Of a DNA stretch of 64,000 nt, positions 38,285-59,789 are shown one piece after another; positions within the stretch are counted from its first letter, which is position 1; each line of letters starts with the position of its first letter. The notes under the pieces are model-generated. The model was not told where the DNA came from, did not search any database, and was given only the letters and a program-made list of their open reading frames with translations. Source of the DNA: Opitutaceae bacterium (lineage in GTDB: Bacteria > Verrucomicrobiota > Verrucomicrobiia > Opitutales > Opitutaceae); assembly GCA_016794625.1 (NCBI GenBank), contig JAEUGY010000037.1, forward strand, positions 186,001 to 250,000. Reading direction: 5' to 3'. The position numbers and the translations under genes were made by a program.

Positions 38285-39886
38285 TCAGTAACGGATCAGT
38301 TCGCCCGCCAGCGCGGGGGCATGACGGGGCAGCCGCAGATTCAGGGTCGCTTGTTCGTAGGCGTATCCCAGCGCGAGAAGCCGGGCTTCACTGAAATCGG
38401 TGCCAAAAAAGCTGATGCCCACGGGCAGGCCGGTGCTGGTGAATCCTGCGGGCAGAATGAGATCGGGAAAGCCGGAGAGATTCGCAAAATTGCTGGGTGA
38501 CGGTGCCGTGGTCGCGGCCGAGCCGCCCGGCTGCTCCTCCCCGATCCGGGCGGGCCGCCGCGGATTCGTAGGATAGACGATTGCGTCAAGCTGGTGCGTG
38601 GTGAAAAGCCCGCGCAGGGTTTCGCGGACAAACGGAAGACCGTGCTGGACGGCCGCAACGTAGGTGGGGTCGGTCAACGGCGGCGATTTCGCTTCCTGGC
38701 GATAGAGCGCCAGTCGACCGTTGTTCTGCATGATGCCGGCCGCGTTCGGAGCGCTGATCTTCTCGGAGAGTGCGAGAATGTCGGCGTGCGTTTTGGGCAG
38801 ACCCGGCCGGGTGGTCGCGAGGTAGTCCTGGACCTGCCATTTGAACTCGGGACGGCGGATCGCGTTGTAGAGGTCGCCTCGCATCTTGTGTAGCACCTCC
38901 GGATACTTGACATCCACGAGCACCGCTCCGGCGCCCCGCAGGGCGCTGAGGGCCGACTCGAAGAGGGTGTCCACCTCGGCGTCCTGACCAAGGAAATCGC
39001 GCGCCACGCCGATGCGGGCGCCGCGGAGCGCCTGACGATCCAGGGCCTTCGTGTAGTCGGTGACGATGCGCCCGGCGCTCTTCCGCGTGGCGGCGTCGGT
39101 AGGGTCCTCTCCCACCGTCACATTCAGGGAAACGGCGATGTCATAGACGCTGCGGGCCATCGGTCCACCCGTGTCAAAGCTCAGCGCGAGAGGAATGATG
39201 CCGGAGCGGGAGAGCAGGCCGTGAGTCGGTTTCAATCCGACGATGCCATTCGCGGTGGAAGGTCCGCGAATCGAACCGCCCGTGTCGGTGCCGTAGCCGA
39301 GCGGCGCATAGTTGGCGGCAATGGCCACTCCGGTGCCGCCGGAAGAACCGGCGGGTGTGCGTTCGAGGTCGTGGGGGTTGCGTGACTGCCCGCCGAGCGA
39401 GCTCATGGCACCCCCTGAGGCAAATTCCGAAAGATTGACCTTGGCGAGAATGACGGCGCCGGCCGAACGCAGCTTGGACACCAGGAAAGCGTCCTTGGCC
39501 GGCACATGATCCTTCAGTCCGTAGAAACCGGCGGTGGTGGGCAGATCGGAGGTGTCGAAGTTGTCCTTCAGCACCACCGGCACACCGTGCAGCGGAGACC
39601 GCGGACCGCGTGCCTTGCGTTCGGCGTCGAGCGCACGCGCCTGCTCGAGGGCGCGCGGGTTCAAGGTGATGATCGCGTGCAGGGTTGGTTCGTAGGCGGC
39701 GATCCGTTTGAGGTAGAGTTGAGTCAGGGTTTCGGACGTCAGTGCACCCGCGTTGAACGCGGCGTTGATGTCGGCGATGGTCGCAGTGGCGAGATTGAAC
39801 TCGGCGGCGCTCAAGGAAAGCCGGGGGGCGGCGAGCAGAGCGAGCAGGACGAGCAGCAGCAGGCGAGGAACGGGGGCGGTGCGCAT
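38285..39886 (-). CDS. AS10: Sec-exported amidase-signature (AS) family hydrolase
   Basis: A 533-residue amide hydrolase with a signal peptide (PRLLLLVLLALLAAPRLSLS). The Ser-cisSer-Lys triad is intact: Lys107 in HGVPVVLKDNF, cis-Ser181 in AGSSGGTG and nucleophile Ser205 in GTDTGGSIRGPS, with the family-typical spacing (74 and 24 residues). It has the N-terminal NLATATIADINAAFNAGALT helix shared by all Sec-type paralogues of this cluster and ends in APALAGELIRY. It most resembles AS4 (50539-52185). It is the last gene of the second transcription unit (AS8-AS9-AS10), 65 bases after AS9. GatA-type function is unlikely because of export and the absence of gatB/gatC. Confidence 0.94.
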   Translation of the reverse strand: MRTAPVPRLLLLVLLALLAAPRLSLSAAEFNLATATIADINAAFNAGALTSETLTQLYLKRIAAYEPTLHAIITLNPRALEQARALDAERKARGPRSPLHGVPVVLKDNFDTSDLPTTAGFYGLKDHVPAKDAFLVSKLRSAGAVILAKVNLSEFASGGAMSSLGGQSRNPHDLERTPAGSSGGTGVAIAANYAPLGYGTDTGGSIRGPSTANGIVGLKPTHGLLSRSGIIPLALSFDTGGPMARSVYDIAVSLNVTVGEDPTDAATRKSAGRIVTDYTKALDRQALRGARIGVARDFLGQDAEVDTLFESALSALRGAGAVLVDVKYPEVLHKMRGDLYNAIRRPEFKWQVQDYLATTRPGLPKTHADILALSEKISAPNAAGIMQNNGRLALYRQEAKSPPLTDPTYVAAVQHGLPFVRETLRGLFTTHQLDAIVYPTNPRRPARIGEEQPGGSAATTAPSPSNFANLSGFPDLILPAGFTSTGLPVGISFFGTDFSEARLLALGYAYEQATLNLRLPRHAPALAGELIRY

Positions 39887-39951: not shown

Positions 39952-41529
39952 TCAAGCGATTGCGGGTTTGATGTAGCCGCCGGTGCGGCTCTCGACGAAG
40001 GCGGCGGCGGCGAGGACCTTGTCCTCGGTCCAGGGCTGCCCGATGATTTGCACGCCGATCGGTAGGCCCTCGGGCGAAGTGCCGGCGCGGACCACGGCCA
40101 CTGGGTAGCCGCTGGTATTGTGCACGCCCATGTAACTCGTGCCTGGGCGCCGCGCATTCGGATCGACGCCCGCGTTGAGCGGCTGCGCCGGCTTCGCCAT
40201 CGCCGGATTGATGACGATGTCGTAGGACTGCATCCACGACAGCAGGCGGCTGCGATTGGCATCCTGCTTTTCCAGCAGCTCGGTCAACTCCGCTGTGGTG
40301 GGAAGCGTCTGGCTCGCACGGGCGGTGATGGTCGGCGAGATCGCCTTGGTGCCCCACTTTTCCGCCAGGCGCAGCAATCCCGGTCCGGAGACGGGGGAGA
40401 TTTTCGAGCGGATCTCCTCCAGTTCCATGATGATGGACTTTGGGTAGTCCTCCTTCACCGAACATCCGAGGTCCGAGAAATAGGAGGCCACCTTTTTGAC
40501 GATCTCGATGGTTTCCGGTGTGATGTCGGCCACGCCGTTGGCGGCGTAGAATCCAATGCGCAGGGACTTTACCTCCACCGCTGCCGGATCGTTCCACGGC
40601 ATGGGCACCATGGCGGCGTCCAGGTCATCCGGTCCCGAAAGCAATGCGCCGATCAGTCCCAAGTCCTCGACCCGCCGGGCCATCGGACCTAGCTCCTGCC
40701 ACGAATCAAAGATGCCGCCGAAGTCGACGATGTGACCCGTGCGCGGCACCCGGCCGAAGGTGGGCTTCAGCCCAGCGATGCCATTGTTGTGGGCCGGCAT
40801 TCGAATGGAACCACCGTAGTCGGAACCGATGTCGAACGAGGCCCCGCCGGCCGCCACGATCGCGCCGGCGCCGCCGGACGACCCGGCGGTGGAGCGGCGG
40901 AGATCGTAGGGGTTCTTGGTGATCCCGTAGATGATGTTGGCGGTGGTGCTGATACCCGGGATGCCGCCTCCGGCGAGGGTGAACTCCGGTGTATTGGTTT
41001 TTCCCAGCAGAATGGCGCCGGCCGCCCGCACGCGGGCCACGACCGTGGCGTCCTGCGGCGGAACATAGAACTGCCGGCCGACGGTGCCGCCGGTGGAAAT
41101 CACACCCTCCGTGTCAATCGAGTCCTTGATGGTGAACGGAACGCCGTGCAGGGCGCCTTGAATGCGGCCCGCGGCGAGCGCGTCGTCCGCGGCCCGGGCC
41201 TCCTGCAAGGCCCGCTCGAAACAGGTCTGCACGACCGCGTTGATCCGAGGATTGACCTTTTCGATCTGGGCGATTGCGGCCTTCACCGCCTCGGTCGCCG
41301 AGACTTTCTTCTCCCGGATCAACTGGGCGAGTTTGGTCGCGGACATGAACACCAGTTCGGACGACGGATCAGTCGAAACCAGCCAGCCCGATTTTGGTGT
41401 GGCGGCGGCGCGGGCGAATCGGGCGGCCGGCAACGTGGCGAGAAAGGCAAGGGTCGAACCGGCGCCGATGCGTCCGATGAAGCGACGGCGAGAGGAGGGA
41501 CGGACGGAGGAAATAGGTGCGGTCGTCAT
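39952..41529 (-). CDS. AS9: Tat-exported amidase-signature family hydrolase
   Basis: A 525-residue AS-family enzyme with a twin-arginine signal (SSRRRFIGRIGAGSTLAFLA). The triad is Lys135 (VPFTIKDSIDT), cis-Ser217 (AGSSGGAG) and Ser241 (IGSDYGGSIRMPA). The SATKLAQLIREKKVSATEAV helix and the PEFTLAGGG motif mark it as a member of the Tat subgroup. It is closest in detail to AS2 (53845-55398), sharing LAQLIREKKVS and GAILLGKTNTPEFTL. The middle gene of the second unit; it starts 16 bases after the AS8 stop. Likely periplasmic, folded before export. Substrate unknown. Confidence 0.94.
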   Translation of the reverse strand: MTTAPISSVRPSSRRRFIGRIGAGSTLAFLATLPAARFARAAATPKSGWLVSTDPSSELVFMSATKLAQLIREKKVSATEAVKAAIAQIEKVNPRINAVVQTCFERALQEARAADDALAAGRIQGALHGVPFTIKDSIDTEGVISTGGTVGRQFYVPPQDATVVARVRAAGAILLGKTNTPEFTLAGGGIPGISTTANIIYGITKNPYDLRRSTAGSSGGAGAIVAAGGASFDIGSDYGGSIRMPAHNNGIAGLKPTFGRVPRTGHIVDFGGIFDSWQELGPMARRVEDLGLIGALLSGPDDLDAAMVPMPWNDPAAVEVKSLRIGFYAANGVADITPETIEIVKKVASYFSDLGCSVKEDYPKSIIMELEEIRSKISPVSGPGLLRLAEKWGTKAISPTITARASQTLPTTAELTELLEKQDANRSRLLSWMQSYDIVINPAMAKPAQPLNAGVDPNARRPGTSYMGVHNTSGYPVAVVRAGTSPEGLPIGVQIIGQPWTEDKVLAAAAFVESRTGGYIKPAIA

Positions 41530-41545: not shown

Positions 41546-43093
41546 TTAGACGGCAGTGGGTTTCTGGAAACCGAAACCGGGCGAGGCCTCGACGAACGCG
41601 GCGGCGGCGAGTGAAACGTCCTCGCGCCAGGGTTTGGTGATGAGCTGCACGCCAATCGGCAGTCCCTCGGGGGAGGTGCCGGCGCGGACCACGGTGCCCG
41701 GCCAACCCGTGTTATTGAAGGTGGCGGTGTAGCCGTAGTTGCCGCGCGCGGGCGGCGTCCACCGCGGTTCTACCGGCCAGGGTTCGGCCGGACCGGCGTT
41801 GGCGGGGCAAATGAGCAGGTCGTAGGGTTTGATCCATTGCAGGAACTTGGTCCGGTTCAGATCCATCTCCTGGGCGAGCCGGGCGAATTCCGCCGTGTCG
41901 CACTGCGGTTGGTCGGTCAGGCTGATGACCGGGGAGATTTGGGACGTACCGTATTTCTTGAGCAGCCGCTTGGTCCAGGCCCGGCCATCGGCCGTGGAGA
42001 GGGCGTTGCGCAGCTCCTGGGATTCTTTGATCAGAGCCTTGGGGCAGTCTTCAATGACCGTCACGCCGAGAGCGGTAAAGAGGGCGGCGGTGCGTTTGAC
42101 CGCGGCAGCCGTTTCCGGTGTGCAGGCTTTCTCGGAGCCGTTCTCGATGTACATGACCACCTTGATGGACTTGAGATCCACCTTGCCAGGTTCGGACCAC
42201 GGCACCGGTGCGATGGCGGCGTCGATCCCGTCCGGCCCGGAGATGAGCGGAAGCAGCAGGGTAAGGTCCTCGACCCAGCGCGCCATGGGACCGATCACCT
42301 GAAACGGGTCAAAGTATCCACCGAAGTCGACAATGTGTCCCGTACGGGGAACGCGGCCGAACTGCGGCTTGATGCCGGCGATTCCGCAGAAGTGCGAGGG
42401 ACCCCGGATCGATCCGCCGAAGTCCGTGCCCAGGTCAAAGGGTGATCCGCCGGCGGCGATGATGGCGGCGCCACCGCCGGTGGAGCCGCCCGGTTGATAG
42501 CCCAGCTTGTACGGATTGTGGGTTTTTCCGTAGATCAGATTCGTGGTTTGACCGGACAACGTCAGTTCCGGCGTGTTGGTTTTGCCGAGGATGATGGCGC
42601 CTGCCTTGCGCACCCGCGCCACGTAGGTGGCATCGCGGGCCGGCAAGAAGTCCTTCCGACCCAGGGTGCCACCGGTCGATCGCACCCCTTGGACCTCATG
42701 GGAGTCCTTGATGGTGCACGGCACGCCATGGAGCGGACCCATCAGCAGACCCTTGGCCTGGGCTTCGTCCGCGCGCGCGGCCTCCTGCAGGGCGCGCTCG
42801 AAGACGGGAAAAACCACGGCGTTCAAGGCCGGGTTGACCTGCTCGATCCGGGCGATCGTGGCTTTGACCAGTTCGGTCGACGAGAGAGATTTCGCCTTGA
42901 TCAACGCGGCGAGTCGTTTGGTCGACGTGAAGAGCAGGTCCGACGGAATGGCCGGATTGGCGGGCGTCTCCGCCCGCAAAACCTGCGTCAGCCAGGCGAG
43001 GGTGGTTCCGCCGGCGCCGAAGCGACGGATGAAGTTCCTGCGCGATGAACGCGTGGTGGGGGCGGGCAGGGAAGAGGATAAGGCAGTGGACAT
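41546..43093 (-). CDS. AS8: Tat-exported amidase-signature family hydrolase
   Basis: A 515-residue enzyme with twin-arginine signal (SSRRNFIRRFGAGGTTLAWL). Triad: Lys129 in HGVPCTIKDSH, cis-Ser204 in PGGSTGGG and Ser228 in GTDFGGSIRGPS. The residue after cis-Ser is Thr instead of the usual Ser. It shares NPYKLGY and surrounding sequence with AS1 (55417-56949; NPYKAGY), suggesting descent from the same copy. It is the first gene of the second transcription unit. A 295-base upstream spacer carries a 32-base element also found upstream of the TonB receptor gene. The ATG is not preceded by a Shine-Dalgarno motif. Confidence 0.94.
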   Translation of the reverse strand: MSTALSSSLPAPTTRSSRRNFIRRFGAGGTTLAWLTQVLRAETPANPAIPSDLLFTSTKRLAALIKAKSLSSTELVKATIARIEQVNPALNAVVFPVFERALQEAARADEAQAKGLLMGPLHGVPCTIKDSHEVQGVRSTGGTLGRKDFLPARDATYVARVRKAGAIILGKTNTPELTLSGQTTNLIYGKTHNPYKLGYQPGGSTGGGAAIIAAGGSPFDLGTDFGGSIRGPSHFCGIAGIKPQFGRVPRTGHIVDFGGYFDPFQVIGPMARWVEDLTLLLPLISGPDGIDAAIAPVPWSEPGKVDLKSIKVVMYIENGSEKACTPETAAAVKRTAALFTALGVTVIEDCPKALIKESQELRNALSTADGRAWTKRLLKKYGTSQISPVISLTDQPQCDTAEFARLAQEMDLNRTKFLQWIKPYDLLICPANAGPAEPWPVEPRWTPPARGNYGYTATFNNTGWPGTVVRAGTSPEGLPIGVQLITKPWREDVSLAAAAFVEASPGFGFQKPTAV

Positions 43094-43305: not shown

Positions 43306-43346
43306 ACGACCCCGACCCGATCAGGTTTTTTTGTGCGGAAACGTCT

Positions 43347-43365: not shown

Positions 43366-43388
43366 GTGACGGTCTGGGTGACGTCCGA

Positions 43389-44561
43389 TCAATACTCGTC
43401 GAAGATCCGTTTGATCTCCTTCGGATCCTGCGTCTTGGCCAGGGCCAGCTGCAGAAGCATGCGAGCCTTCTCCGGCATCAGATTGTCCGCGGGAATGATC
43501 CCGGACTCACGCCGCCGGGGCGTGTCTTGGACGCGGCCGCCATGGGTGCGGGCGGTCACTGCGACAATGACCCCCGCGGCCTGGGCCTTCTTGATGGCTT
43601 CGGTCTGTCCGCCGGTCGGGCTGCCGGCTCCGGTGCCATCCACAATGATCCCCTTGACTCCGGCCGTGACCATCGCGTCGAGGATGTAACCGGGCGCCTC
43701 CGTGTAGGCGTAGGCGATCTCCACGTCGGGCAGTTTGGGCGGGAGCGAGTTGATGTTGAACTCGGAGGTGTGGGTGTGGCGGCGCGTCGGTGCGGTGAAG
43801 AAGACCACTTTGTCCGGATCAGCGACTCCCATTACGCCGAGATCGATGCTGCGAAACGTATCCATCCGATAGGCACTCAATTTCGTCACATCGCGGGCCG
43901 AATTGATGTTCTGGTTCATCGCGTGCAGCACCCCCTTGCCCGCCGCCTCCGGAGTGGCGGCGACCCGGACCGCATTGAGCAGGTTGAGGGGACCGTCGCC
44001 GCTGAGGCCGCTCCAGGGCCGCTGCGAGCCCACGTACACCACCGGTTTGGTGATGTTGACCGTCAGGTTCATGAACCATGCGGTCTCGGCCATCGTATTC
44101 GTGCCGTGTGTGACGACGACGCCGTCCACGTTGGGGTCGTTGGCCAGTTCCTGCAGACGTTTCGCCACGGCGTAGAGCCGCTCGTAGGACGTGCCGCCGC
44201 CCGCGGGTGCGTCCGCCGGCGGACGGAAGTCCTCGGTCGTGATGCGGGCGTAGAGGGCCAGGTCGGGCAGGTCCTTGACCCACTTCTCCGGATCCACGCG
44301 GGGGTTGTCCTTGCCTCCATAGTTGGTGATGTTGAGCCGGTCCTTGGCTTGGGAGGCGATGGTGCCGCCCATGGAGAGCAACGTGATCCGGGGCAGCGAA
44401 AGACCCGGAGGAGCGATGGGCGGAATTTCCTGCGCCCGCAGGACGGAAATGGGAGCGAGGCAGGCGAGGGCGCAGCTCGCGGTCAGGGCCCGCAGCGCGA
44501 ACCGTCGGGCCTGGGGCCGGGGCGGAGTGAGGGCGGAACGAAGAGAAGGAGACGTGTGCAT
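43389..44561 (-). CDS. Exported type II asparaginase-like amidohydrolase with HGTN active site
   Basis: A 390-residue member of the bacterial asparaginase/glutaminase (AnsB) family with a signal peptide (ALTASCALACLAPISVLRAQ). Catalytic Thr67 in SMGGTIAS, second Thr154 in VVTHGTNTMAETA and Lys227 in ARDVTKLSA are retained. The HGTD motif of known asparaginases is HGTN here (Asn155), and the Ser-Gln pair that binds the substrate alpha-carboxylate is not recognisable. Asp90 of E. coli AnsB contacts the substrate amino group, so these changes argue for a substrate other than free asparagine or glutamine. The C-terminal LAKTQDPKEIKRIFDEY is AnsB-like. It ends the first transcription unit. Confidence 0.92.
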   Translation of the reverse strand: MHTSPSLRSALTPPRPQARRFALRALTASCALACLAPISVLRAQEIPPIAPPGLSLPRITLLSMGGTIASQAKDRLNITNYGGKDNPRVDPEKWVKDLPDLALYARITTEDFRPPADAPAGGGTSYERLYAVAKRLQELANDPNVDGVVVTHGTNTMAETAWFMNLTVNITKPVVYVGSQRPWSGLSGDGPLNLLNAVRVAATPEAAGKGVLHAMNQNINSARDVTKLSAYRMDTFRSIDLGVMGVADPDKVVFFTAPTRRHTHTSEFNINSLPPKLPDVEIAYAYTEAPGYILDAMVTAGVKGIIVDGTGAGSPTGGQTEAIKKAQAAGVIVAVTARTHGGRVQDTPRRRESGIIPADNLMPEKARMLLQLALAKTQDPKEIKRIFDEY

Positions 44562-44598: not shown

Positions 44599-45639
44599 TC
44601 AGTAGCTGTTGAAGATCCGCTGAAGCTCGCGCGGATCCTTGGTCTTGGTCAGGGCGAGCCGCAGAAGAATGCGCGCCTTCTGCGGATTGAGACTGTCGGC
44701 CGTGATGACACCGCGTCCGGCGGTGCGCTCGCTCAAGGGCACCCGTCCCGCGCCCTTGCGGTCGCTTTGCACGACCGCAATGCCCTTGGCGATGGCGGCG
44801 GACGAGCCGGTGGCGAACGGTGGGGCTCCGTCGGCAAGGATGATTCCCTTGACGCCGGCCTCGATCAGGGAGTTCAGCGGCGCGGCGGAAGCCTCCTGGT
44901 AGCCGTAGACGATATCAACCGCGGGAAGTTCGGTCAGGGCGCTGACATCGAATTCACTCTTCGACGTGTGCCGGGTCAGGGGCGTGCGGTAGAATACCAC
45001 CCGGTCGCTGTCCGAGTAGCCGATCGGGCCCACCTCGCGGGAGACAAACGTTTCGACGTGGGTGGTGTGACCCTTGTTGACGAACCGCGCGGAGTGCAGG
45101 GTGTCGTTCAGCAGCACGATCACCCCCTTGCCCACGGCCTCGGGTGTGACGGCGGTGCGGACCGCATTGTAAAGGTTGAATGGACCGTCCCGGCTGATGC
45201 CGGTCCAAGGACGCATCGCACCGACCACCACCACCGGTTTATCGGATTTGACGGTGAGGTGAAGAAAGTAGGCCGTCTCCTCCAGCGTGCCCGTGCCATG
45301 CGTGACCACAGCGCCGGCCACGTCGGCTTTGGCCAGCTCGGCATTGATGCCCTTGACCAGCTTCAACAGCAGGTCGGTTTTCATGCCACCTGATCCGATG
45401 TTGCTGATTTCCGTCACCTGGATGTCGGCGATTGCCTTCAGCTCCGGCAGGTCGCTGAGCAGTTCGTCTGGGGTCACCCGGCCATCGTTGTACTCGGTGA
45501 TCTTGAGACGATGAGCACCCTTGCTCTGGATGGTGCCCCCGGTGGTGAAGAGGGCCACTTTGGGCAGGGCGGCTTGGGCGATGGGGCCCGCGATAAAGGC
45601 GAGCAGGAGCAGGCAGGTGGAGGTGAGACGTGGTTTCAT
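44599..45639 (-). CDS. Exported type II asparaginase-like amidohydrolase with HGTG active site
   Basis: A 346-residue AnsB-family protein with signal peptide (STCLLLLAFIAGPIAQA). Thr36 (TTGGTIQS), Thr116 (VVTHGTGTLEETAYF) and Lys189 (ARFVNKGH) are conserved. The usual Asp after Thr116 is Gly117, and NIGSQ is NIGSG (Ser83 kept, Gln replaced by Gly84). Thus both the amino- and carboxylate-binding residues for an alpha-amino acid substrate are altered. The remaining core (VVVGAMRPWTGISRDGPFN, LNPQKARILLRLAL) is otherwise close to E. coli AnsB. It starts 15 bases after AS7 and precedes the second homologue by 37 bases in the same unit. Confidence 0.92.
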   Translation of the reverse strand: MKPRLTSTCLLLLAFIAGPIAQAALPKVALFTTGGTIQSKGAHRLKITEYNDGRVTPDELLSDLPELKAIADIQVTEISNIGSGGMKTDLLLKLVKGINAELAKADVAGAVVTHGTGTLEETAYFLHLTVKSDKPVVVVGAMRPWTGISRDGPFNLYNAVRTAVTPEAVGKGVIVLLNDTLHSARFVNKGHTTHVETFVSREVGPIGYSDSDRVVFYRTPLTRHTSKSEFDVSALTELPAVDIVYGYQEASAAPLNSLIEAGVKGIILADGAPPFATGSSAAIAKGIAVVQSDRKGAGRVPLSERTAGRGVITADSLNPQKARILLRLALTKTKDPRELQRIFNSY

Positions 45640-47285: not shown

Positions 47286-48905
47286 TCAGTAGGTGAAGGA
47301 TTCCCCCGGGAGGGCAGGAGTGGAGACGGGCGGGCGCCGGTGCCGGGTGGTGCTCTCGTATCCAGCGCCCACCGTCAGGAGCGTGGGCTCGCTCCACGGT
47401 TTGCCGAGGAACTGCAGCCCAAACGGCATGCCGTCGCCGGGAAAGAAACCGCCGGGCACGATGAGGGTAGGAAGTCCCGTGTAGGAGCTGAGACTGTTGC
47501 GAGTCTCCGCCCGGCCCCCGCCGCCTTCGGCGGGAATCGTGTCGATGACCGCCGTGCGAAAGGGCAGCACGAGTGCGTCGAGCTGGTGCTTTTCGATCAG
47601 CGCCACGAGGGCGGCGCGCAACATGTCCTGCTGCCGTTAGGCGGCGATGAGTGGCGCGTGGCGGTCGAGCCGGCCGATTTTGGCTGTCTCGATGATGCCC
47701 GGTTTGACGAGGGCTCCTCCCTTGGCAATCATCTCCTCGACCGTGCGGATCGGCGCGGTCGGAGGGAGGGCGGAGAGATACTTGTTGATCGCGTCGGCCC
47801 GTTCGAATGACGCGGCGGCAGCGTCGCTTTGCACCTGCACGAGGTCCAGGTGCGTCAGCACCGGATCGACGACGACGGCTCCGGCCTTGCGCAGATCGGC
47901 GACCGCCTGATTGAACAAAGCGGTGCCTTCGGCGTGCAGGGCGCCGGGGCGCACCATCTCCCGCAGCACGCCGAGCCTGGCCCCACGCAGACCATCCGGG
48001 CGGACAAAACTGACATAAGGTGCGTCAGGCAGCCGGCCGACACAGGCTTCCGTGGCGAGGTCGGCGGCGTCGTAACCGGCGATGACATCGAGCACCGCCG
48101 CTGCATCCAGCACACTGCGCACCATGGGCCCGCCGTTTTCCTGGCGCGGTGAGCTCCACATCATGCCCGTGCGGGAGACGAGGCCGTGGGTCGCGGAGAG
48201 TCCGACCAAATTGCTGTTGGCGCTCGGAATGGTGATGGAGCCGCCGGTGTCGCTGCCCAATCCAAGAGTGCCGAACCATGCCGCCACGGCTGCACCGGTG
48301 CCGGAGCTGGAGTGGCCGGTGCTCTTTTTGGCATTGTAGGGGCTCAGCACCTGGCCCTTCAGCGTGCTCGCTCCCGCCGGGGCGACACCGTACCAGTCGG
48401 ATTGGTTGAGTTTGGCGAGAATGATGATGCCCGCGGCGCGCAAACGGGCGATGACAAACGAGTCGCGCGAGGGCTGGGAGGTCGCCATCGGCAGGAAGCC
48501 GCCGGTGGTTGGCAGGTCCGCTGTATCGTAGACATCCTTGACCACGGCGACCAGACCATGGAGCGGGCTGCGCGCGCGCCCCGCTTTGCGCTCGGCGTCC
48601 AAGGCGCGAGCCTCCTCCAGGGCGCGGGGATTGAGTGTGATGACCGTGTTGAGACGCGGTCCGGACTGATCGTAGGCGGCGATGCGTGCCAGGTAAAGAC
48701 TCACCAGCCGCTCGGAGGTGAGGGCGCCGCGCTCCAGTACCGTGCGCAGCTCCGCGGTGGTGGCGGTCGCCAGATCGAACGTGGCCGCGCGGGCCGGGGG
48801 GAATGCGGCCGACAGGACGAGCGCCAGGGTGAGAACGCGTGGACGCAGCGCGTGCGTCCAGCGGGGCGAGGGGCGCGGGGTGTCAGCGATCGGACAGGGT
48901 GACAT
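47286..48905 (-). pseudogene. AS6: amidase-signature gene interrupted by one in-frame TAA
   Basis: Full-length homology spans 540 codons but codon 423 is TAA (47637-47639). The reading frame is unchanged on both sides. The paralogue AS5 has Tyr at the equivalent position (AIYRQQEV versus A-A-stop-R-Q-Q-D-M), so a single TAC/TAT to TAA change explains it. The upstream 422-residue part carries the signal peptide, Lys123 (VVKDVYDT), cis-Ser199 (GHSSSGTG) and Ser223 (GSDTGGSIT). It would lack the last 116 residues, including LPTLIVPGGFFPG and the TPALPGESFTY tail. ATG at 48905 overlaps the AS5 end by 23 bases. Sequencing error, recent inactivation or stop readthrough are alternatives. Confidence 0.88.
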
Positions 48906-50520: not shown

Positions 50521-50538
50521 CGACACAGAAGGAGGGGG

Positions 50539-52197: not shown

Positions 52198-53829
52198 CTA
52201 GTAGGAGAAGGATTCGCCGGGCAGTGCGGGGGTGGAGGCTGGGTCAACGCGGCGCTGCGTCGCCTGCTCATACGCGTAGGCGTAAGCAAGGAGACGGGGT
52301 TCGCTGTAGGCCGCTCCTAGGAACGAGATCGAAACAGGAAGCGTGCCGTGGGATACACCGGCAGGGACAATCACGTCGGGCAGCTGCGTGATGTTCGCGA
52401 TGTTGGTGATCGAGCCACCGAGGCGGGCACTGGTATCCATGGGCGACGAGTCAGCGATCTTCGCCGGCGGTTCGCCGCGAGTGCAGTAGACGATGCAGTC
52501 GAGCCGATGTTGGGTCATGACGCTCATCACGGCGTCACGGATCATGGCCATGCCGTGCTCCCGCGCGGAGCGGTAGAGCGCGTCCGTGGATTTCAGGCCC
52601 GTGTTCGAGGCGCGCAGCGCATGGTAGAGCCGCGCGTTGGGGGAGACACGGCCGCGCGGCTCCTTCAAGCCGTCGTGCAGCGCGATCATCTCGTCCAGCG
52701 ACTTCGGGTAGCCCGGTTTGAGGGTCGCCAGGTAGTGCCCGAGTTCTTCGCGAATATCCACCTGACGGATGATCTCGGAGACGCCCTGCCGTCCCTCCAT
52801 TACGACGGAAGGGTACCGCACGCTATCGATGATCACGGCCCCCTGGGCCTTCAGATCGGCGACCGCCTGGTTGAACGTGGCGTCGACCTCCTTGTCCTTG
52901 CCCAGCCCCTCGCGCAGGATGCCGATGCGGGCGCCGTTGAGCGCCTTCTTGTTTAGAAACTGGGTGTAGTCGGTGTAATAGAGTCCCACGCTCTTTTCCG
53001 TCAGGGCATCATCCGGATCGACTCCCGTCATGAAACCCAGGGAGAGGGCGACGTCGTAGACGGTGCGCGCCATCGGCCCGCCCGTGTCGAGCGAAAGTAC
53101 GCGGGGAATGATGCCCGCGCGCGAAAGCAAACCATTGGTCGGCTTGATGCCGGGGACACCATTGTAGGAGCAGGGACCACGAATCGAACCGCCCGTGTCG
53201 GTACCCAGACCGAGCGGAGCGAACCAGGAGGCAAGTCCGGCGCCCGTGGCGCCCGAGGAGCCAGCCGGGATGCGATCCAAGGCGTGGGGATTCTTGGTCT
53301 GACCCCAGAGAGAGCTGAAGCCGATGCCTCCTCCGGCCAGTTCGTCAAGATTGACCTTGGCCAGCACGATGGCACCCGCTTCGCGCAAGCGGCGGATCAT
53401 GTATCCGTCGCGTGGCGGCAGCGAACCGGCGAGATAGAAGGCTCCGCCCGTCGTCGGCAGATCAGCGGTGTCAAAGTTGTCCTTCACCAAGACCGGTATC
53501 CCGTGCAGCGGAGAACGCCGCCCGCGGGCGCGGTATTCGGCATCCAGCTCCCGCGCGGTCTCGAGTGCGCGGGGATTGAGGGTGATGACGGTATTGAGGG
53601 ACGGACCCTGCTGGTCGTAGGCCTGGATGCGTGCGAGGTACAGTTGGACCAGCTTTTCGTAGGAAAGCGCCTTCGCATCCACTGCGGCGTGGATGGCGGG
53701 AATGTCGGCCGAGGCGAGGTTGAAGGTTGCCGACCAAGCCGTGGAGACCCCTGCGCAGAGCAAGGTGACGAGAACGAAGCGGACCGGAAGACGGGCGAAG
53801 CCGCGACGGGCGGCGGAGGATGAGGTCAT
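52198..53829 (-). CDS. AS3: Sec-exported amidase-signature family hydrolase
   Basis: A 543-residue AS protein with a signal peptide (PVRFVLVTLLCAGVSTAWS). Triad: Lys116 (IPVLVKDNFDT), cis-Ser191 (AGSSGATG), Ser215 (GTDTGGSIRGPC). The N-terminal helix ASADIPAIHAAVDAKALSYE is a divergent form of the Sec-subgroup helix. It ends in TPALPGESFSY. ATG at 53829 is preferred; a GTG four codons upstream is possible and would bring the gene to within four bases of the AS2 stop. It is the third AS gene after the TonB receptor in the first unit. Confidence 0.94.
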   Translation of the reverse strand: MTSSSAARRGFARLPVRFVLVTLLCAGVSTAWSATFNLASADIPAIHAAVDAKALSYEKLVQLYLARIQAYDQQGPSLNTVITLNPRALETARELDAEYRARGRRSPLHGIPVLVKDNFDTADLPTTGGAFYLAGSLPPRDGYMIRRLREAGAIVLAKVNLDELAGGGIGFSSLWGQTKNPHALDRIPAGSSGATGAGLASWFAPLGLGTDTGGSIRGPCSYNGVPGIKPTNGLLSRAGIIPRVLSLDTGGPMARTVYDVALSLGFMTGVDPDDALTEKSVGLYYTDYTQFLNKKALNGARIGILREGLGKDKEVDATFNQAVADLKAQGAVIIDSVRYPSVVMEGRQGVSEIIRQVDIREELGHYLATLKPGYPKSLDEMIALHDGLKEPRGRVSPNARLYHALRASNTGLKSTDALYRSAREHGMAMIRDAVMSVMTQHRLDCIVYCTRGEPPAKIADSSPMDTSARLGGSITNIANITQLPDVIVPAGVSHGTLPVSISFLGAAYSEPRLLAYAYAYEQATQRRVDPASTPALPGESFSY

Positions 53830-53844
53830 GGGAGAGGACACAGG

Positions 53845-55398
53845 CTAGAGAACCGGGTGGGGGAACGGGCCGAAGGCGCGTTCGAGGTGCAGAGCGACGG
53901 CGAAGGCGACGTCCTCGCGCAGGGGGCGGCCGACGACCTGCAGCCCGAGCGGCAGTTTTTCCGGTGAGGTGCCGCCACGCAGCACGAGCGCGGGCCAGCC
54001 GGAGATGTTGTAGATGGCGGTGTAGCTCATGGAACCGTCGCGAGCCGACTGGATGCGCGGCGCAGGGCCGGCGTTGGCCGGGCAGAGGATGACGTCGTAG
54101 TTTTTGAACCAGGAGGTCATGGCGCGACGGTAGCGGTCCTGCTCCTGCAGCAGTGCGATCAGTTCGGCGGAGGTGCTGGCCGGAGCGCTGAACTTGAGGC
54201 TCGGTGCCACCGTCCGACTGCCGACTTTCTCGGCCAGTCGCTTCATCCACTGATTGCCATCGGCCTGACGCAGCCGGGTGCGCAACTCGACGGCTTCACG
54301 GTAGTGCGGATGCAGATCCTCTCGCACCGTGGCGCCAAGGGCCGCGAGGGAATCGGCCGCCCGCTTCACCATGGCCTGCGTCTCGGCGGTTGGGGCAGAG
54401 ACTCCGTTGCTCAGATAGAATGCCACGCGCAGTTTGGAGAGATCGACGGCCGCTGGCTCGAGGAATGGGGCGGGCAGAATGGCCGCGTCCTTGCCGTCCG
54501 GCCCTGAGATGACGCGGGTGACCAGGACAAGATCTTCCACCCTGCGGGCGAGAGGTCCGACCTGCTGGTAGGCGTCGAAGATGCCACCGTAGTCGACAAT
54601 GTGACCGGTGCGCGGCACGCGCCCGGTTGACGGCTTGATCCCGGCGACACCGTTGGCATGCGCCGGACCGCGGATGGAACCGCCGAAGTCGGAGCCGATG
54701 TCGAAGGCCGCGCCACCTGCCGCCACAATCGAACCAGCGCCGCCGGAAGAACCGGCGGAGCTGTGCAGCGGATTGTGCGGATTCCGAGTGACGCCATAGA
54801 TCAGGTTCCAGGTCGAAGTGATGCCATCGACTCCCGAAAGCGTGAATTCGGGGGTATTGGTCTTGCCGAGGAGGATGGCACCTGCGGCGCGGGCCCGGGC
54901 GACCGCAGTGGCGTCCGCGGCGGGTACATAGTCGATCCGGCCGAGCGTTCCCCCGGTGGAGACCACTCCGGCGGTATCGAGCAAGTCCTTGATCGTCATC
55001 GGTACGCCGTGCAGCGGACCCAGGGTTCGGCCGGAGGCGACCGCGTCGTCGGCGGCCTTGGCCTCGGCCAGAGCGCGATCAAAGCAGGTCTTGACCACGG
55101 CATTGAGGGTGGGATTGACCGCCTGGATCCTTTGGATGTAGGCGCGGGTTGCTTCCGTCGAGGAGACCTTCTTTTCTCGAATCAACTGCGCCAGCCGCGA
55201 GGCGGACATCCAGATGATCTCAGTCGAAGTGTCGTCGGAGGTGGCGGGAGCGGCCGCGCGAGCGGATGAACCCACAGCGAGCGTTCCCAGCAACGAGCCG
55301 GCGGCGCCGAGGCCGGCGCTGCGCAGAAAGCCGCGGCGACTGGGCCGGACGGACGCGCCGCGCGAGGCGGAAGAGAGGGGCAGGGAGGAGGAATTCAT
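53845..55398 (-). CDS. AS2: Tat-exported amidase-signature family hydrolase
   Basis: A 517-residue AS enzyme with a twin-arginine signal (RPSRRGFLRSAGLGAAGSLL). Triad Lys137 (VPMTIKDLLDT), cis-Ser217 (AGSSGGAG), Ser241 (IGSDFGGSIRGPA). Highly similar in order and motif detail to AS9, including the same positions for cis-Ser and Ser. The start is 18 bases after the AS1 stop. Tat export implies folding in the cytoplasm before transport. AS enzymes need no cofactor, so Tat use here is notable rather than required. Confidence 0.95.
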   Translation of the reverse strand: MNSSSLPLSSASRGASVRPSRRGFLRSAGLGAAGSLLGTLAVGSSARAAAPATSDDTSTEIIWMSASRLAQLIREKKVSSTEATRAYIQRIQAVNPTLNAVVKTCFDRALAEAKAADDAVASGRTLGPLHGVPMTIKDLLDTAGVVSTGGTLGRIDYVPAADATAVARARAAGAILLGKTNTPEFTLSGVDGITSTWNLIYGVTRNPHNPLHSSAGSSGGAGSIVAAGGAAFDIGSDFGGSIRGPAHANGVAGIKPSTGRVPRTGHIVDYGGIFDAYQQVGPLARRVEDLVLVTRVISGPDGKDAAILPAPFLEPAAVDLSKLRVAFYLSNGVSAPTAETQAMVKRAADSLAALGATVREDLHPHYREAVELRTRLRQADGNQWMKRLAEKVGSRTVAPSLKFSAPASTSAELIALLQEQDRYRRAMTSWFKNYDVILCPANAGPAPRIQSARDGSMSYTAIYNISGWPALVLRGGTSPEKLPLGLQVVGRPLREDVAFAVALHLERAFGPFPHPVL

Positions 55399-55416
55399 GG
55401 CGAGGGTGGACGCGGC

Positions 55417-56949
55417 CTAGAGCACGGGGGGGCGATAGCCGAAGCCCGGTTGGGCCTCGAGATGACGGGCGACGGCGAGCACAACGTCGTCGCGCCACGG
55501 CTTGCCGACGATCTGCACCCCGATGGGCAGGCCATCCGGGGACATGCCTCCGCGCAGGACCGCGGCCGGCCAGCCAGTGATGTTGTAGATCTGGGTATAG
55601 CCTCCGCCCACGGGTGCGCCCGGAGTCTCCGGACGATCGAGCGCGGTGGCGGGGGTGGCGCCGGTCGGACAGAGGATCACGTCGTAACTGTCCATCCATG
55701 ACAGCAGCCTGCTGCGCAGCGCGTCCTGACGTTCGGCGAGGCGCGTGAACTGGTCGGCCGCCAGAGTCTTGCCCGTGATGCGGCGTACAATGCCCGGTGA
55801 GGCGGTGCGGGTGCCGGCCTCGTCGAGCATGCGCTGGAACCAGGCGCCTCCGTCCGCGCCGACATACGCGCTGCGGATCTCCTGACCTTCGGCGTCACCG
55901 CCGTGAAACGCCTCGGTCACCGATGCCACCGCCGGGGCGAGTGCCTGGGCGGCGTTCTTCACGGCGGCGATCGTCTCGGCGCTTGGAGTTGAGACGGCAT
56001 TGGAGGTATAGAAGGCGACCCGGAGACCCTTCAACGACACCGCAGAGGATGCTCCCAGGGGAATGGGGAGAATCACCGGATCCTCGAAATCCGGTCCGGC
56101 GATGAGCGAGAGAATCAACTCCAGATCCTCCACCCGGCGCGCCAGCGGCCCCAGTTGCTGATAGCTGTCGAACGGCCCGCCGTAGCCCGGCAAATGTCCC
56201 GTGCGTGGTACGCGACCGGTGGTCGGTTTGATTCCGGCAATGCCATTCATGTGGGCCGGGCCCCGGATGGAGCCACCGAAGTCCGAGCCAATGTCGAAGG
56301 ACGAGCCACCGGCGGCGACGATGGCGCCGGCGCCGCCCGAAGAACCGCTCGGTGAATATCCCGCCTTGTACGGATTGTAGGTCTGGCCGAAAACCAGGTT
56401 GTAGGTGCCGAGGCCACCACCGCCGAGCGTGAACTCCGGTGTATTGGTCTTTCCGATGAGAATGGCGCCGGCGGCGCGCACCCGGGCCACCGCGGTGGCG
56501 TCCGTGCCCGGGACGTGCCCTTTCCGCCCGAGCGTGCCGGCGGTTGAGATGACTCCGGCGGTTTCCAGGGAATCCTTGATCGTGAAGGGCACCCCGTGCA
56601 GCGGTCCAAGCGATCGACCTCGGGCGAGGGCGGCGTCGGCGGCGGCCGCTTCGGCGAGGGCTCGCTCGGTGACCAGGGTCACCACTGCGTTGATCTTTGG
56701 GTTGACGGCGGCGATGCGGGCCAGCTGGGCCTGCACGGCTTCCACCGAGGACAGTTTCTTGGTCCGGATCAGCTCGGCCAGCTTCGTGGCAGAAGCGTAG
56801 AGCGGATCGGAGGAAGAGTCGGTGGAGGTGACGGAGGAGCTGGATTCGGCGCGGGAGCGAAGTCCGGCGAGGGAGACTAGGGCCGCTGTCCCGCCCAGAT
56901 GGGCGAGAAACCGGCGGCGCGAGGGGGGCGAAGCGGGCGATGAGCGCAT
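55417..56949 (-). CDS. AS1: Tat-exported amidase-signature family hydrolase
   Basis: A 510-residue AS enzyme, first amidase gene after the TonB receptor. Twin-arginine signal (PSRRRFLAHLGGTAALVSLA) is followed by a Ser-rich linker (about residues 35-48). Triad: Lys125 (VPFTIKDSLET), cis-Ser203 (SGSSGGAG), Ser227 (IGSDFGGSIRGPA). It shares NPYKAGY and flanking residues with AS8. ATG at 56949 was chosen because it begins the Tat signal 98 bases after the receptor stop. No Shine-Dalgarno motif is present. Family substrates range from small amides to acylated peptides and cyclic oligoamides, so specificity is open. Confidence 0.95.
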   Translation of the reverse strand: MRSSPASPPSRRRFLAHLGGTAALVSLAGLRSRAESSSSVTSTDSSSDPLYASATKLAELIRTKKLSSVEAVQAQLARIAAVNPKINAVVTLVTERALAEAAAADAALARGRSLGPLHGVPFTIKDSLETAGVISTAGTLGRKGHVPGTDATAVARVRAAGAILIGKTNTPEFTLGGGGLGTYNLVFGQTYNPYKAGYSPSGSSGGAGAIVAAGGSSFDIGSDFGGSIRGPAHMNGIAGIKPTTGRVPRTGHLPGYGGPFDSYQQLGPLARRVEDLELILSLIAGPDFEDPVILPIPLGASSAVSLKGLRVAFYTSNAVSTPSAETIAAVKNAAQALAPAVASVTEAFHGGDAEGQEIRSAYVGADGGAWFQRMLDEAGTRTASPGIVRRITGKTLAADQFTRLAERQDALRSRLLSWMDSYDVILCPTGATPATALDRPETPGAPVGGGYTQIYNITGWPAAVLRGGMSPDGLPIGVQIVGKPWRDDVVLAVARHLEAQPGFGYRPPVL

Positions 56950-57047
56950 GGAGGGACAGGCACGGTGAAACCGTGCGGCAAACGTGAACGGAACGGGGAA
57001 CGCAGAAACCAAACCGCCGCCGGGCGCAGCCGGCGGCGGTGGTGTGA

Positions 57048-59789
57048 TCAGAAGCGGTACGTGATCGTGGAGTCGAAGGTGCGCGGCAGGCGCGCCGCGA
57101 CCGAGTTGAACGATCCACCGTTGAAGTACAACTTGTCGAAGACGTTGAGGATGTTCAAACGTCCCTCCCAGTTCTTGTACGTGTAGGCGATACCGGCGTC
57201 GAACACGTAGACCGGCTTGACGATGACCGTCTTCAGACGGTCGGCGGCGAAGTTGCCCTGGTAGTAGGCCGTGGCCCGGATCGAGATGCCGTTCTTGAAC
57301 GTGTAGATCGGCGTCAGGTTGACGATCGTATCGGGAATCGCATTGACTTCATCGTAGTCCGTGACTCCGGCGGGGATGTTGGTCGAGATGATGCCGCCCC
57401 AGCCGAAGGCCTCGGCCGGGATGACGACCTTGCCCGTTGCGTCGACCACGTCAGGATACCCGAGGAACCGGGCATTGGTGTTCACGTTGCCCGAACTCAC
57501 CAGATTCACCGTCTTGGAGCTGCTCATGCCCGCGGTGAGACTGAAGCGGCGGCTTGGCGACCAACGCAGCTCACCCTCGATGCCGCGCCCCCGCGTAGCC
57601 CCGATGACACCCGCGCCGTCGTTTGGATCGAAGTTGTTGCGCGTCTGATCATAGGCGGCGACGGCGAAGAAGAGTTTTCCGCCGTAGTACGAACCCTTGA
57701 TGCCGACTTCGCGCAGCTGGGATTCGCCAATCGGACCGCGGCGGACATTGGCCACCGGGATGCCTCCCGTCGAAGCGTCGCCAATGGGCGCGGATTGGAC
57801 GGCATACGTGAAGTAGGGTTTCAGACCCCGGATCAGCTCGAAGCTGGCGCTTCCCGAGTAGGACCAGCCGAAGTCGTTGGACTTGGCGTAGTCGGCGTAC
57901 CCCTTAAAGGCGGGATTGGTGCTGGCGACCGTGAGGCTTCCGTTGCCGTTGCGATTGAAGACACCGGCGGGCACGTAGGCCTCGCTATCAATGCTGTCGC
58001 CCCGGCCGCCGACCATCAGATTGAACTTCTTGAAGAGCGTGATGTCGGCGAGAAGCCCGAAGCCCCACTGCAGGTAGTTTGACTGCTGGAACTGGGAGAG
58101 GGCGCTGCCTTCGAAGCCGGAGTTCTTGGTGAAGGCACTGAACGTGTCGTTCGGGGTGAACCCGGACATCAGACTGCGTCGGAAGTCATAGTCCACCGTG
58201 TTATCGGTCCGCCGGCCACCGTCGTAGTAGACTCCGTTCACCGAACCGAGAGTGGCGGCTTCCAGCCAGTCCCACTTCGGATGCCACGTCTTTACGACCG
58301 TGATCTTGTCCTCAATTTGGAAGATATTCTGGAATTGCGAGAACGGATTGCGGCCGGTCTTCTCCTGGTCCTGCGTATCCAAGAGGAACTGATTCTTGTA
58401 GGTCAGGTCCTCGTTCGTGTCGTTGACCAGGTCGAAGAAGAAGGTGTAAATGTAGGCCTCGTAGTAGTCTTCACCAAAGCTCCGACGGTAGTCGAACGGC
58501 ACCTGCTGCCAGGTCCCCAGCTTCGGGTCGAAGGCGGGCGGCATGTAGAAGGCCTGCTTGGCGACCGCGGTGTTGGGCAGCCCCGTGGCGAGGACCGGAT
58601 ATACTCCAAGCTGCAGCCCCTGCCGTTGCACGGCGGTCCCGCCCACCTGGGTGGGCGCCGTGTCGAGGTAGCCGGCCTGGAACTGGGCGACCGTAATGGT
58701 GCCCCCGTTGACCGGTCCGCCCTGCCAGGGGAAGCGCCGGTTGAGCGGGGCGTTGACCTGACCCACGTAGTTGCGCGAGGCGCCGATGTTGCCCGCGGCG
58801 GTCGAGGCGCCGCCTCGACCCTGGGGGATGCCCCCAAAGTAGGAATTGAAGATCTCCGTGTCGGAAATGCGACTGTCCCCGTTGCTGTCGAGGTTATAGG
58901 AGAAGGTGCCGTCCCAGTAGCGCCCCGTGTTGACGAAATCCTGGGTGGTGCGGTTAACGCCGCCCGGGAGACCGCCGTAGGAGTACTGTGAGACCGCGCC
59001 GGTTTCCAGGCGCCAGTTCTTCGTTAGATCCAGTGTCAGCGTGGCTTGGATGATCTTGTGCCGATCATGCGGAGAGATCGAGTAGTAGCTGTCGCTGTCT
59101 TCATAGTAGCCGAAGACCTGATAGCCGCCGTTACGGCCGGCGATCTTGACCGGCCCCCCGACGTCCGTGGTCACGATGTTCTTTCCGTAGGAGCCGAAGG
59201 TGTAGCTGACCTCGCCCGTCGGCCGATCGAGGTATTTCCCGGTCTTCTCCAGGCGGGCCGTCTTCGGGTTGAAGTTCAGGTAGCCGCCGATGCGGCCCAG
59301 GCCGTAGATGGGCGAGGGGGGGCCACGGACGATTTCGATCGAGTCATTGGCGGCGAAAATCGTCCGGTAGTTGCCCTGCGGATCAATCCGCCGCATACCG
59401 CGGAAATAGAAGTCCGATGTCTGGTTCCGGACGGAGACATTGCCCTGGAGACCGAAGCGGAAATTCGAGAACGTGGACGGTGCGATCCGGGCGATGTCCT
59501 CCGAATTGCGAATCGCGAGCGTCTTGATGAACTCGGAGCTGATGTTGGTCGCCGAGCGGGGAGTATCGTACAAGCTCCGGTTCAGGCCGAGAATGGAGCT
59601 CGTCGGCTGATTCGGGACAATACGGTTGGGATCGTCCTTGTTTTCTTCGGCGATGAACTTCTCGAGTGTGATGACCGGTTCATCGGATTTCTTGGCGGCC
59701 TCCCCCGGCGTGGCCACCTGGCCGGAGGCAGCCAAAGGCAGGAAGGACGCTAGGCTTACGAGCGTGCTGAGAGACTTAACTTTTCGCAT
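57048..59789 (-). CDS. TonB-dependent receptor heading the amidase cluster
   Basis: A 913-residue outer-membrane receptor. Signal peptide (LVSLASFLPLAASGQ), TonB-box-like EPVITLEKFIAEEN, plug domain (about 60-190; LNRSLYDTPRSATNISSEFI, VSVRNQTSDFYFRGMRR, NDSIEIVRGPPSPIYGLGRI, GGYLNFNPKTAR) and a barrel finishing with the outer-membrane signature phenylalanine (TFDSTITYRF). The plug resembles siderophore-type (FhuA/FecA-like) receptors common in Opitutaceae. As the first gene before seven exported amidases and two asparaginase homologues, its likely cargo is an amide-containing oligomer or its breakdown product, though metal chelates remain possible. Upstream are the shared element (59820-59852) and a palindrome (59903-59922). 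Confidence 0.94.
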   Translation of the reverse strand: MRKVKSLSTLVSLASFLPLAASGQVATPGEAAKKSDEPVITLEKFIAEENKDDPNRIVPNQPTSSILGLNRSLYDTPRSATNISSEFIKTLAIRNSEDIARIAPSTFSNFRFGLQGNVSVRNQTSDFYFRGMRRIDPQGNYRTIFAANDSIEIVRGPPSPIYGLGRIGGYLNFNPKTARLEKTGKYLDRPTGEVSYTFGSYGKNIVTTDVGGPVKIAGRNGGYQVFGYYEDSDSYYSISPHDRHKIIQATLTLDLTKNWRLETGAVSQYSYGGLPGGVNRTTQDFVNTGRYWDGTFSYNLDSNGDSRISDTEIFNSYFGGIPQGRGGASTAAGNIGASRNYVGQVNAPLNRRFPWQGGPVNGGTITVAQFQAGYLDTAPTQVGGTAVQRQGLQLGVYPVLATGLPNTAVAKQAFYMPPAFDPKLGTWQQVPFDYRRSFGEDYYEAYIYTFFFDLVNDTNEDLTYKNQFLLDTQDQEKTGRNPFSQFQNIFQIEDKITVVKTWHPKWDWLEAATLGSVNGVYYDGGRRTDNTVDYDFRRSLMSGFTPNDTFSAFTKNSGFEGSALSQFQQSNYLQWGFGLLADITLFKKFNLMVGGRGDSIDSEAYVPAGVFNRNGNGSLTVASTNPAFKGYADYAKSNDFGWSYSGSASFELIRGLKPYFTYAVQSAPIGDASTGGIPVANVRRGPIGESQLREVGIKGSYYGGKLFFAVAAYDQTRNNFDPNDGAGVIGATRGRGIEGELRWSPSRRFSLTAGMSSSKTVNLVSSGNVNTNARFLGYPDVVDATGKVVIPAEAFGWGGIISTNIPAGVTDYDEVNAIPDTIVNLTPIYTFKNGISIRATAYYQGNFAADRLKTVIVKPVYVFDAGIAYTYKNWEGRLNILNVFDKLYFNGGSFNSVAARLPRTFDSTITYRF

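Follow-up and report, generated by a model that had tools for sequence, protein, structure and literature searches.

A receptor-linked array of predicted exported amidases in an Opitutaceae genome and its relatives in other phyla: a candidate locus for extracytoplasmic amide utilisation

What is known of bacterial access to extracellular amide-bound organic nitrogen comes mostly from work on proteases and on amidases that act singly. The removal of primary amides is the usual reaction of the amidase signature (AS), asparaginase and FmdA families; within the AS family, peptide amidase is a C-terminal deamidase. The present analysis concerns a 64,000-nucleotide window (C93:186001-250000) of the genome of an Opitutaceae bacterium (6.45 Mb in 127 contigs, 95% complete, 1.3% contaminated), in which the genes of a TonB-dependent receptor, ten AS proteins and two asparaginase homologues succeed one another. 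Judged from sequence, the chances are about even that this run is a locus for extracytoplasmic amide utilisation by deamidation, comparable to polysaccharide utilisation loci. Somewhat more tentatively, it may represent a new class of mobile island that unites a TonB receptor family with up to two dozen exported AS enzymes, re-tooled asparaginase pairs and FmdA-type amidases for the extracytoplasmic deamidation of organic nitrogen, and that would have moved between Verrucomicrobiota and Pseudomonadota. The observations read directly from the sequences are the gene content, the AS triads, the export-like N-termini, the change in the asparaginase pocket, the recurrence across phyla and the tracking of AS genes by the receptor. 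Searches of open-licence literature, from which most subscription papers are absent, turned up no account of such arrays.

As the earlier note on this DNA had stated, positions 38285-59789 of the window hold an unbroken series of 13 genes on the minus strand; in reading direction, the order is TonB receptor, seven AS genes, two asparaginase homologues and three AS genes. Pfam recognised PF01425 in ten of the products (E values of 1e-65 to 1e-103), PF00710 together with PF17763 in two and PF07715 in one. The close packing claimed for the genes was found again, but not the spacing of 2-65 bases: with the called starts, the intergenic distances are mostly 2-98 bases, with a single gap of 295 bases (43094-43388) and one gene pair overlapping by 23 bases. 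The genes of the run are as follows (KSS, Lys-Ser-Ser triad).

57048..59789, minus strand: TonB-dependent receptor, 913 residues, first in the run (PF07715 plug, 35.6 bits; best matches array-linked in 8/8 other genomes)
55417..56949, minus strand: AS amidase, Tat-like N-terminus (PF01425, 332 bits; KSS; SRRRFL)
53845..55398, minus strand: AS amidase, Tat-like N-terminus (PF01425, 336 bits; KSS; SRRGFL)
52198..53829, minus strand: AS amidase, Sec-like N-terminus preceded by ARRGF (PF01425, 288 bits; KSS)
50539..52185, minus strand: AS amidase, Sec-like, peptide-amidase-like (PF01425, 322 bits; 1m21, 362 bits; AlphaFold fold matches)
48883..50526, minus strand: AS amidase, Sec-like given the longer start (PF01425, 232 bits; KSS)
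47286..48929, minus strand: AS amidase gene with in-frame TAA at 47637-47639, sixth AS gene counted from the receptor (PF01425)
45655..47283, minus strand: AS amidase, Sec-like N-terminus (PF01425, 240 bits; KSS)
44599..45639, minus strand: type-II-asparaginase homologue, upstream member of the pair; Asp90 replaced by Gly (HGTG; PF00710/PF17763)
43389..44561, minus strand: type-II-asparaginase homologue, downstream member of the pair; Asp90 replaced by Asn (HGTN; PF00710/PF17763)
41546..43093, minus strand: AS amidase, Tat-like N-terminus (PF01425, 316 bits; KSS; SRRNFI)
39952..41529, minus strand: AS amidase, Tat-like N-terminus (PF01425, 317 bits; KSS; SRRRFI)
38285..39886, minus strand: AS amidase, Sec-like, last of the run (PF01425, 348 bits; KSS)

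The clustering of the AS genes is not a matter of chance, since 10 of the 12 present in the genome lie within 21.5 kb of 6.4 Mb and other genomes of the family are also AS-rich; of the three asparaginase-family genes, two belong to the run. PF01425 was matched above its cut-off by all ten AS genes (in the interrupted gene, the listed open reading frame covers part of the profile), and the Lys-Ser-Ser triad (Lys, cis-Ser, Ser) is present in the nine that are open. In the interrupted gene, all triad motifs are located before the TAA, the frame is otherwise open to its end, and the identity to a relative is 71%. Among all AS rows with hits above 250 bits (87 from the window and the related G regions, 115 from the close loci described below), 199 of 202 keep the triad, the remaining three being incomplete frames; without the duplicate records L062 and L086, the count is 190 of 193. 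The N-termini of the run's AS proteins are by inspection Tat-like (SRRxF) in four and Sec-like in six cases, with a fifth motif (ARRGF) in the 52198 gene. As judged by a crude hydrophobicity/AxA test, used together with inspection by eye and in place of SignalP or another predictor, 7 of 9 open AS proteins and one of the two asparaginase homologues of the window pass, as do 73 of 87 AS proteins over all regions read; the window proteins that fail are signal-like by eye (41546, with its Tat motif; 48883, with a longer start at 50526; 43389, hydrophobic without AxA). From these N-termini, the AS enzymes and asparaginase homologues of the run are predicted to be exported. The ten AS genes with signal peptides and triads named in the earlier note thus stand as regards the family and, in the nine open genes, the triad, but one gene is interrupted and the signal peptides are those seen by eye or by the crude test. 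A cytoplasmic GatA-like function was ruled out by the export-like N-termini and by the lack of GatB/GatC in the run; the GatA-like AS gene of the genome (524 bits to PF01425) sits elsewhere, on C73.

Pairwise identity among the open AS proteins of the window is 26-56% (n=9), and each of the nine has its nearest relative in a different genome; recent tandem duplication as the origin of the array is ruled out by these values. Over all loci, the nearest relative lies in another locus for 181 of 200 AS proteins (18 of them duplicate-record pairs), so that most copies are old and kept; in G013a, 7 of 24 AS proteins have their nearest relative inside the same array. A gene family that was expanded by duplication without specialised roles and is partly decaying would agree with the interruption of one of the ten window AS genes; set against the nearly invariant triad, the age of most copies and the recurrence of the asparaginase pair and FmdA across phyla, this explanation is scarcely to be expected. 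The nearest NCBIfam model for the AS proteins, NF006006, gave 497 bits for the best window gene (cut-off 534; eight of the ten AS genes scored). As a separate observation, AS proteins of about 650 residues occur in small runs, one directly adjoining an RND (resistance-nodulation-division) adaptor and permease (G013:C1:2638606-2644614), another behind a TonB receptor (G005:C1:2034929-2038944).

Similar arrays recur in the window's family: at least ten AS matches were present among the matches listed in 8 of 100 genomes (own included), some matches being pieces of one gene. The largest comprise 24 AS genes and 6 asparaginases in 49 kb (G013, 2082583-2131940) and, within 48 kb, 22 AS genes, 6 asparaginases and a divergent asparaginase-like protein (G004); 14 AS genes and 4 asparaginases lie in about 27 kb in G211, with the receptor at the upstream end. 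Smaller arrays combine two asparaginases with 8 AS genes (G034), with 5 (G054) or with 6 (G048, which has a separate second array of 6 AS genes). The layout in G054 is that of the window, namely TonB receptor, three AS genes, the asparaginase pair and two AS genes, with a convergent permease, adaptor and FmdA. Asparaginases of the downstream type (at least 450 bits) occur in 12 of 252 family genomes and are spread over ten genera, one of the 12 (G025, L088) having the asparaginase pair with AS genes that are only scattered; the nine other genomes of the window's own genus gave no asparaginase match at 1e-60. Among 387 genomes across the phylum, only four pass 1e-90, all of the window's family and including the window's own.

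The co-occurrence of AS arrays and TonB receptors, for which the earlier note had proposed a search, was indeed found in relatives. Array-type asparaginases occur in 12 other genomes of the family. Eight of these (G133, G054, G013, G004, G034, G228, G211 and G048) were searched with the window receptor, and in all eight its top-scoring match is part of the array or adjoins it. Five weaker matches fall outside arrays; four of them (G054:C42, G013:2656000, G004:3578856, G228:C88) are followed, about 2.2 kb downstream, by another AS gene, a distance that the remainder of the receptor frame would roughly occupy, whereas the fifth, in G020 (108 bits), has no such neighbour. The same-genus genome G007 gave no match of the window receptor. 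By sequence likeness, then, one receptor family tracks the AS genes. Genes resembling ExbB/ExbD are found near arrays or AS runs in G004, G034, G005, G013 and G048; Pfam confirmed ExbB, ExbD and TonB in G034 and ExbB and ExbD in G013. NMT1_2 genes adjoin the ExbB/ExbD genes of G004, G034 and G048, and a LysR gene was confirmed in G034; no ExbB/ExbD, NMT1_2 or LysR genes adjoin the window run.

An alignment of seven array asparaginases served as bait in a scan of one genome per species (84,980 species). It matched 230 loci, of which the best 80 were kept: 33 close ones (56-80% identity) and 47 distant ones (32-42%) as controls. The close loci are not fully independent, since L065/L071 and L066/L078 each share a genome and L069/L070 are close kin. 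At least two AS genes were present in 26 of the 33 close loci and in none of the 47 distant loci (one of which has a single AS gene), at least four in 17 versus none, the asparaginase pair in 29 versus none, FmdA in 14 versus none, and an RND part in 8 versus one; 115 of 124 AS hits lie on the same strand as the asparaginases. The hosts of the close set belong to Verrucomicrobiota, Gammaproteobacteria (Solimonas, Nevskia, Hydrocarboniphaga, Steroidobacter, Cellvibrionaceae), Alphaproteobacteria, Acidobacteriota and Aminicenantes; in the loci of the last two, asparaginases are present and AS genes are not. Whole-genome searches in eight close-set genomes (six gammaproteobacterial, two verrucomicrobial) gave 13-25 AS matches per genome; of the 20 in Solimonas soli, 17 fall within C3:342947-377092. 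Occurrence of the array is thus sporadic and not confined to Verrucomicrobiota. Isolates that carry the system are Solimonas soli DSM 21787, Solimonas aquatica DSM 25927, Hydrocarboniphaga daqingensis CGMCC 1.7049 and Opitutaceae bacterium EW11. A TonB-like barrel and an Amidohydro_1 protein were seen near the asparaginase pair of L071 (Bryobacterales).

A maximum-likelihood tree built from 47 rows unites the 41 downstream-type asparaginases in a single supported group (100/99). Two sequences of the window's family, both from single-contig genomes (G013a_29, G004_23), are nested in an otherwise gammaproteobacterial group (100/99); the other asparaginase copies of these G013 and G004 arrays group with Verrucomicrobiota. 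Transfer is the simplest reading of this tree, according to which the array probably moved between phyla, with the reservation that paralogues and bins can mimic transfer and the deeper forks are unsure. The recurrence of similar loci and the tracking of AS genes by the receptor family support the proposal of the earlier note that the run would be devoted to processing amides outside the cytoplasm and would have a TonB receptor of its own.

Both asparaginase homologues of the window possess the catalytic residues Thr12, Tyr25, Thr89 and Lys162 (numbering of E. coli asparaginase II, assigned by motif instead of by alignment to that protein); against TIGR00520 (cut-off 314 bits), the 44599 gene reached 372 bits and the 43389 gene 300 bits. 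These four residues are retained in the array-type asparaginases with few exceptions. The position of Asp90, on the other hand, is replaced in 79 of the 80 array-type rows that have a letter there (downstream 41/41, upstream 38/39), a count that excludes the duplicate records L062 and L086 and includes the divergent third copies L084 and L085, fragments and the seven close loci without AS genes. In the downstream type (43 rows), it is occupied by Asn in 40 and Ser in one, with two gaps; in the upstream type (39 rows), by Ala (16), Gly (15), Ser (4), Thr (2), Asn (1) and Asp (1), the sole Asp-keeping row coming from L088, a locus without neighbouring AS genes. In most downstream-type rows, Ser58 is missing as well. 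The position assigned to E283 falls in a variable region and carries no weight here. According to a passage in PMC6667453, Asp90 does not vary among asparaginases of types I and II and is critical to the binding of canonical substrates. A passage in PMC8256714 counts it among five residues crucial for catalysis; on that passage's view, the array asparaginases might be impaired instead of re-tooled. Since the array-type asparaginases lack this residue, free asparagine is an unlikely substrate, and we infer that they do not normally handle it; the loss fits the suggestion of the earlier note that these enzymes would act on side chains. Beside the regular homologues, long divergent asparaginase-like proteins (about 580-715 residues, open frames) are encoded at L063:17022-19166, L069:4580-6331, L044:10661-12448 (G004) and L091:19267-21099, with weak PF00710 matches of 23-31 bits in the three scanned. 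A further protein of 577-611 residues with many hydrophobic stretches occurs in ten close loci, all gammaproteobacterial (L072:6878-8710, L068:7055-8797, L091:7167-8927, L080:7050-8867, L064:3561-5291 and relatives); it stands immediately before the asparaginase pair in four of five mapped cases and had no Pfam match in three scanned.

The locus probably includes the convergent neighbouring operon at 32607-38097; a regulator gene lies upstream of the run:

32607..33707, plus strand: FmdA/AmdA-family amidohydrolase, hydrophobic signal-like N-terminus, convergent neighbour (PF03069)
33741..34925, plus strand: RND periplasmic adaptor (TIGR01730, 261 bits; also adjoins other arrays)
34957..38097, plus strand: RND inner-membrane permease (PF00873, 989 bits; longer open reading frame 34855-38097)
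60276..61001, minus strand: TetR-family regulator upstream of the run, possible regulator (PF00440)

The FmdA-like protein, one of two FmdA/AmdA proteins encoded in the genome, matches PF03069 over both parts with 106 bits, above the cut-off; its hydrophobic N-terminus has no AxA in the crude test. It also matches solved acetamidases (best 136 bits, 2ii1) and reaches 62.8 bits against the formamidase equivalog NF045496 (cut-off 500). The RND adaptor and permease adjoin arrays in the window, G054, G004, L061, L063 and others, and the permease is nearest to multidrug-type models, although below their cut-offs. Together with the TetR gene upstream of the window run, these findings would suit a defence or detoxification island, with periplasmic amidases to inactivate amide-containing toxins or antibiotics and the RND pump to export them; the receptor family that tracks the AS genes and the ExbB/ExbD genes nearby in several genomes point to uptake instead, and RND parts occur in only 8 of 33 related loci, which renders this explanation quite improbable. 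The TetR regulator has no relative among the other arrays read; the regulators seen there are LysR genes and, at L071 and L072, sigma-54 activators, with no single common one. Ahead of the TonB gene, a GC-rich unit (GGCTGGCCCTCGCGGCCAC) that is present three times in the intergenic stretch 60020-60230 was spotted by eye. The GC content of the run is not set apart from that of its flanks, Rfam and tRNA scans of the window gave no matches, and a promoter/terminator scan of 42500-60500 gave nothing usable (one promoter-like and 17 terminator-like sites versus shuffled means of 1.9 and 10.9).

With three unrelated families of primary-amide hydrolases that are predicted to be exported and share their own receptor, the array suggests extracytoplasmic deamidation for nitrogen. 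In such a system, the predicted TonB receptor would carry amide-bearing compounds across the outer membrane, and the predicted exported AS enzymes, asparaginase homologues and FmdA-like protein would hydrolyse primary amides (R-CONH2) of differing contexts, setting ammonia free in the periplasm. The asparaginase homologues may act on Asn/Gln-like side chains with a blocked alpha-amino group, as in peptides, because the residue for binding of the canonical substrate is lost; the neighbouring RND pump could expel unwanted products. The many distinct paralogues would serve many substrate contexts, like the glycoside hydrolases in polysaccharide utilisation loci. For the Sec-type AS protein 50539-52185, the peptide amidase of Stenotrophomonas is the nearest solved relative by sequence (1m21, 362 bits), and the top PDB fold matches of its AlphaFold model (pLDDT 76) are peptide amidase as well (TM 0.76-0.90); the closeness of this protein to peptide amidase speaks for the removal of primary amides rather than the cleavage of amide polymers.

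Several points weigh against deamidation by a receptor-linked array. The substrates of AS enzymes also include secondary amides, esters and carbamates, so that “primary amide” is a guess, and the Tat-type AS protein 53845-55398 is about equally distant from GatA, FAAH, 6-aminohexanoate-cyclic-dimer (nylon-dimer) hydrolase and urethanases, with peptide amidase no closer to it than these. As FAAH, the nylon-dimer hydrolase and the urethanases cut secondary amides or carbamates, and as each locus holds many divergent AS proteins, amide polymers or natural products (lipopeptides, oligopeptides, polyamides) might instead be digested outside the cytoplasm via their secondary backbone amides, as a source of carbon and nitrogen; this is unlikely in view of the Sec-type protein's relationship to peptide amidase, of the action of the asparaginase and FmdA families on primary amides, and of the run itself, among whose genes Pfam revealed no peptidase or esterase. 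With respect to proposed deamidation, it also counts that export was predicted by eye and by the crude test, that no regulator pointing to a nitrogen role was found at the arrays, and that 11 of the 47 distant asparaginases likewise lack Asp90 (Asp 36, Ala 8, Asn 2, Ser 1), the loss therefore not being unique to arrays. There is no AS gene near the asparaginase in 7 of the 33 close loci: L074, L076, L087 and L089 (short contigs or contig ends), L065 and L071 (one Bryobacterales bin) and L088. A TonB receptor like that of the window is present in only 6 of the 33 close loci (five of them verrucomicrobial; none of the 47 distant loci), many loci ending at 10 kb. The genome has 117 TonB plug-domain matches, a high number for 6.4 Mb, and a TonB neighbour in a single genome therefore means little alone; that the TonB gene is a chance neighbour was dropped as an explanation because of the array linkage in eight of eight genomes.

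In the receptor, no barrel family was recognised at threshold beside the plug domain, and its AlphaFold model (mean pLDDT 36) was not used. Its PDB matches, a further point on the negative side, are few, weak and mostly siderophore receptors. They would be in line with siderophore piracy, i.e. import of hydroxamate or peptide siderophores by the receptor and their degradation by the amidases for iron and nitrogen, but they score 39-67 bits over about 80-240 residues in the region of the plug, Pfam identified neither iron regulators nor reductases among the genes of the run, and FmdA and the asparaginase homologues would have no evident role; we consider piracy very improbable.

If deamidation is indeed the function, the array would represent the nitrogen equivalent of polysaccharide utilisation loci, with three unrelated amidohydrolase families joined to a receptor of their own, and would supply many predicted exported amidases that await characterisation, among them asparaginase homologues without the substrate-binding Asp. 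Its recurring genes would provide a marker set for metagenome searches, and the existence of named isolates with arrays opens the system to direct experiments.

Among the known systems, subunit A of GatCAB shares the AS family with the run, but differs in that the run's proteins have export-like N-termini and no GatB/GatC is encoded among the 13 genes. Acetamidase/formamidase (FmdA/AmdA) shares PF03069 with the neighbour or member of the arrays, whereas the window protein has a signal-like N-terminus and lies far under the formamidase equivalog cut-off. With the type II L-asparaginases (E. coli AnsB/EcAII), the array homologues have the family and Thr12/Tyr25/Thr89/Lys162 in common; they differ by the exchange of Asp90 for Asn (downstream) or mostly Ala/Gly/Ser/Thr (upstream) and, in the downstream type, mostly by the lack of Ser58. 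The peptide amidase Pam of Stenotrophomonas maltophilia (1m21/1m22) is nearest to the tested Sec-type AS protein in sequence and fold, yet the latter is about 40% identical and clustered in an array. The SusC/SusD-type polysaccharide utilisation loci share with the arrays the TonB receptor, the diverse same-strand hydrolases (exported; here by prediction), the sporadic occurrence and the probable transferability; in contrast, Pfam revealed neither SusD nor carbohydrate-active enzymes among the window's 13 genes, its enzymes are of unrelated amidohydrolase families, and only the plug of its receptor was recognised. Thus, although what defines polysaccharide utilisation loci is missing, the run follows their logic of hydrolases linked to a receptor.

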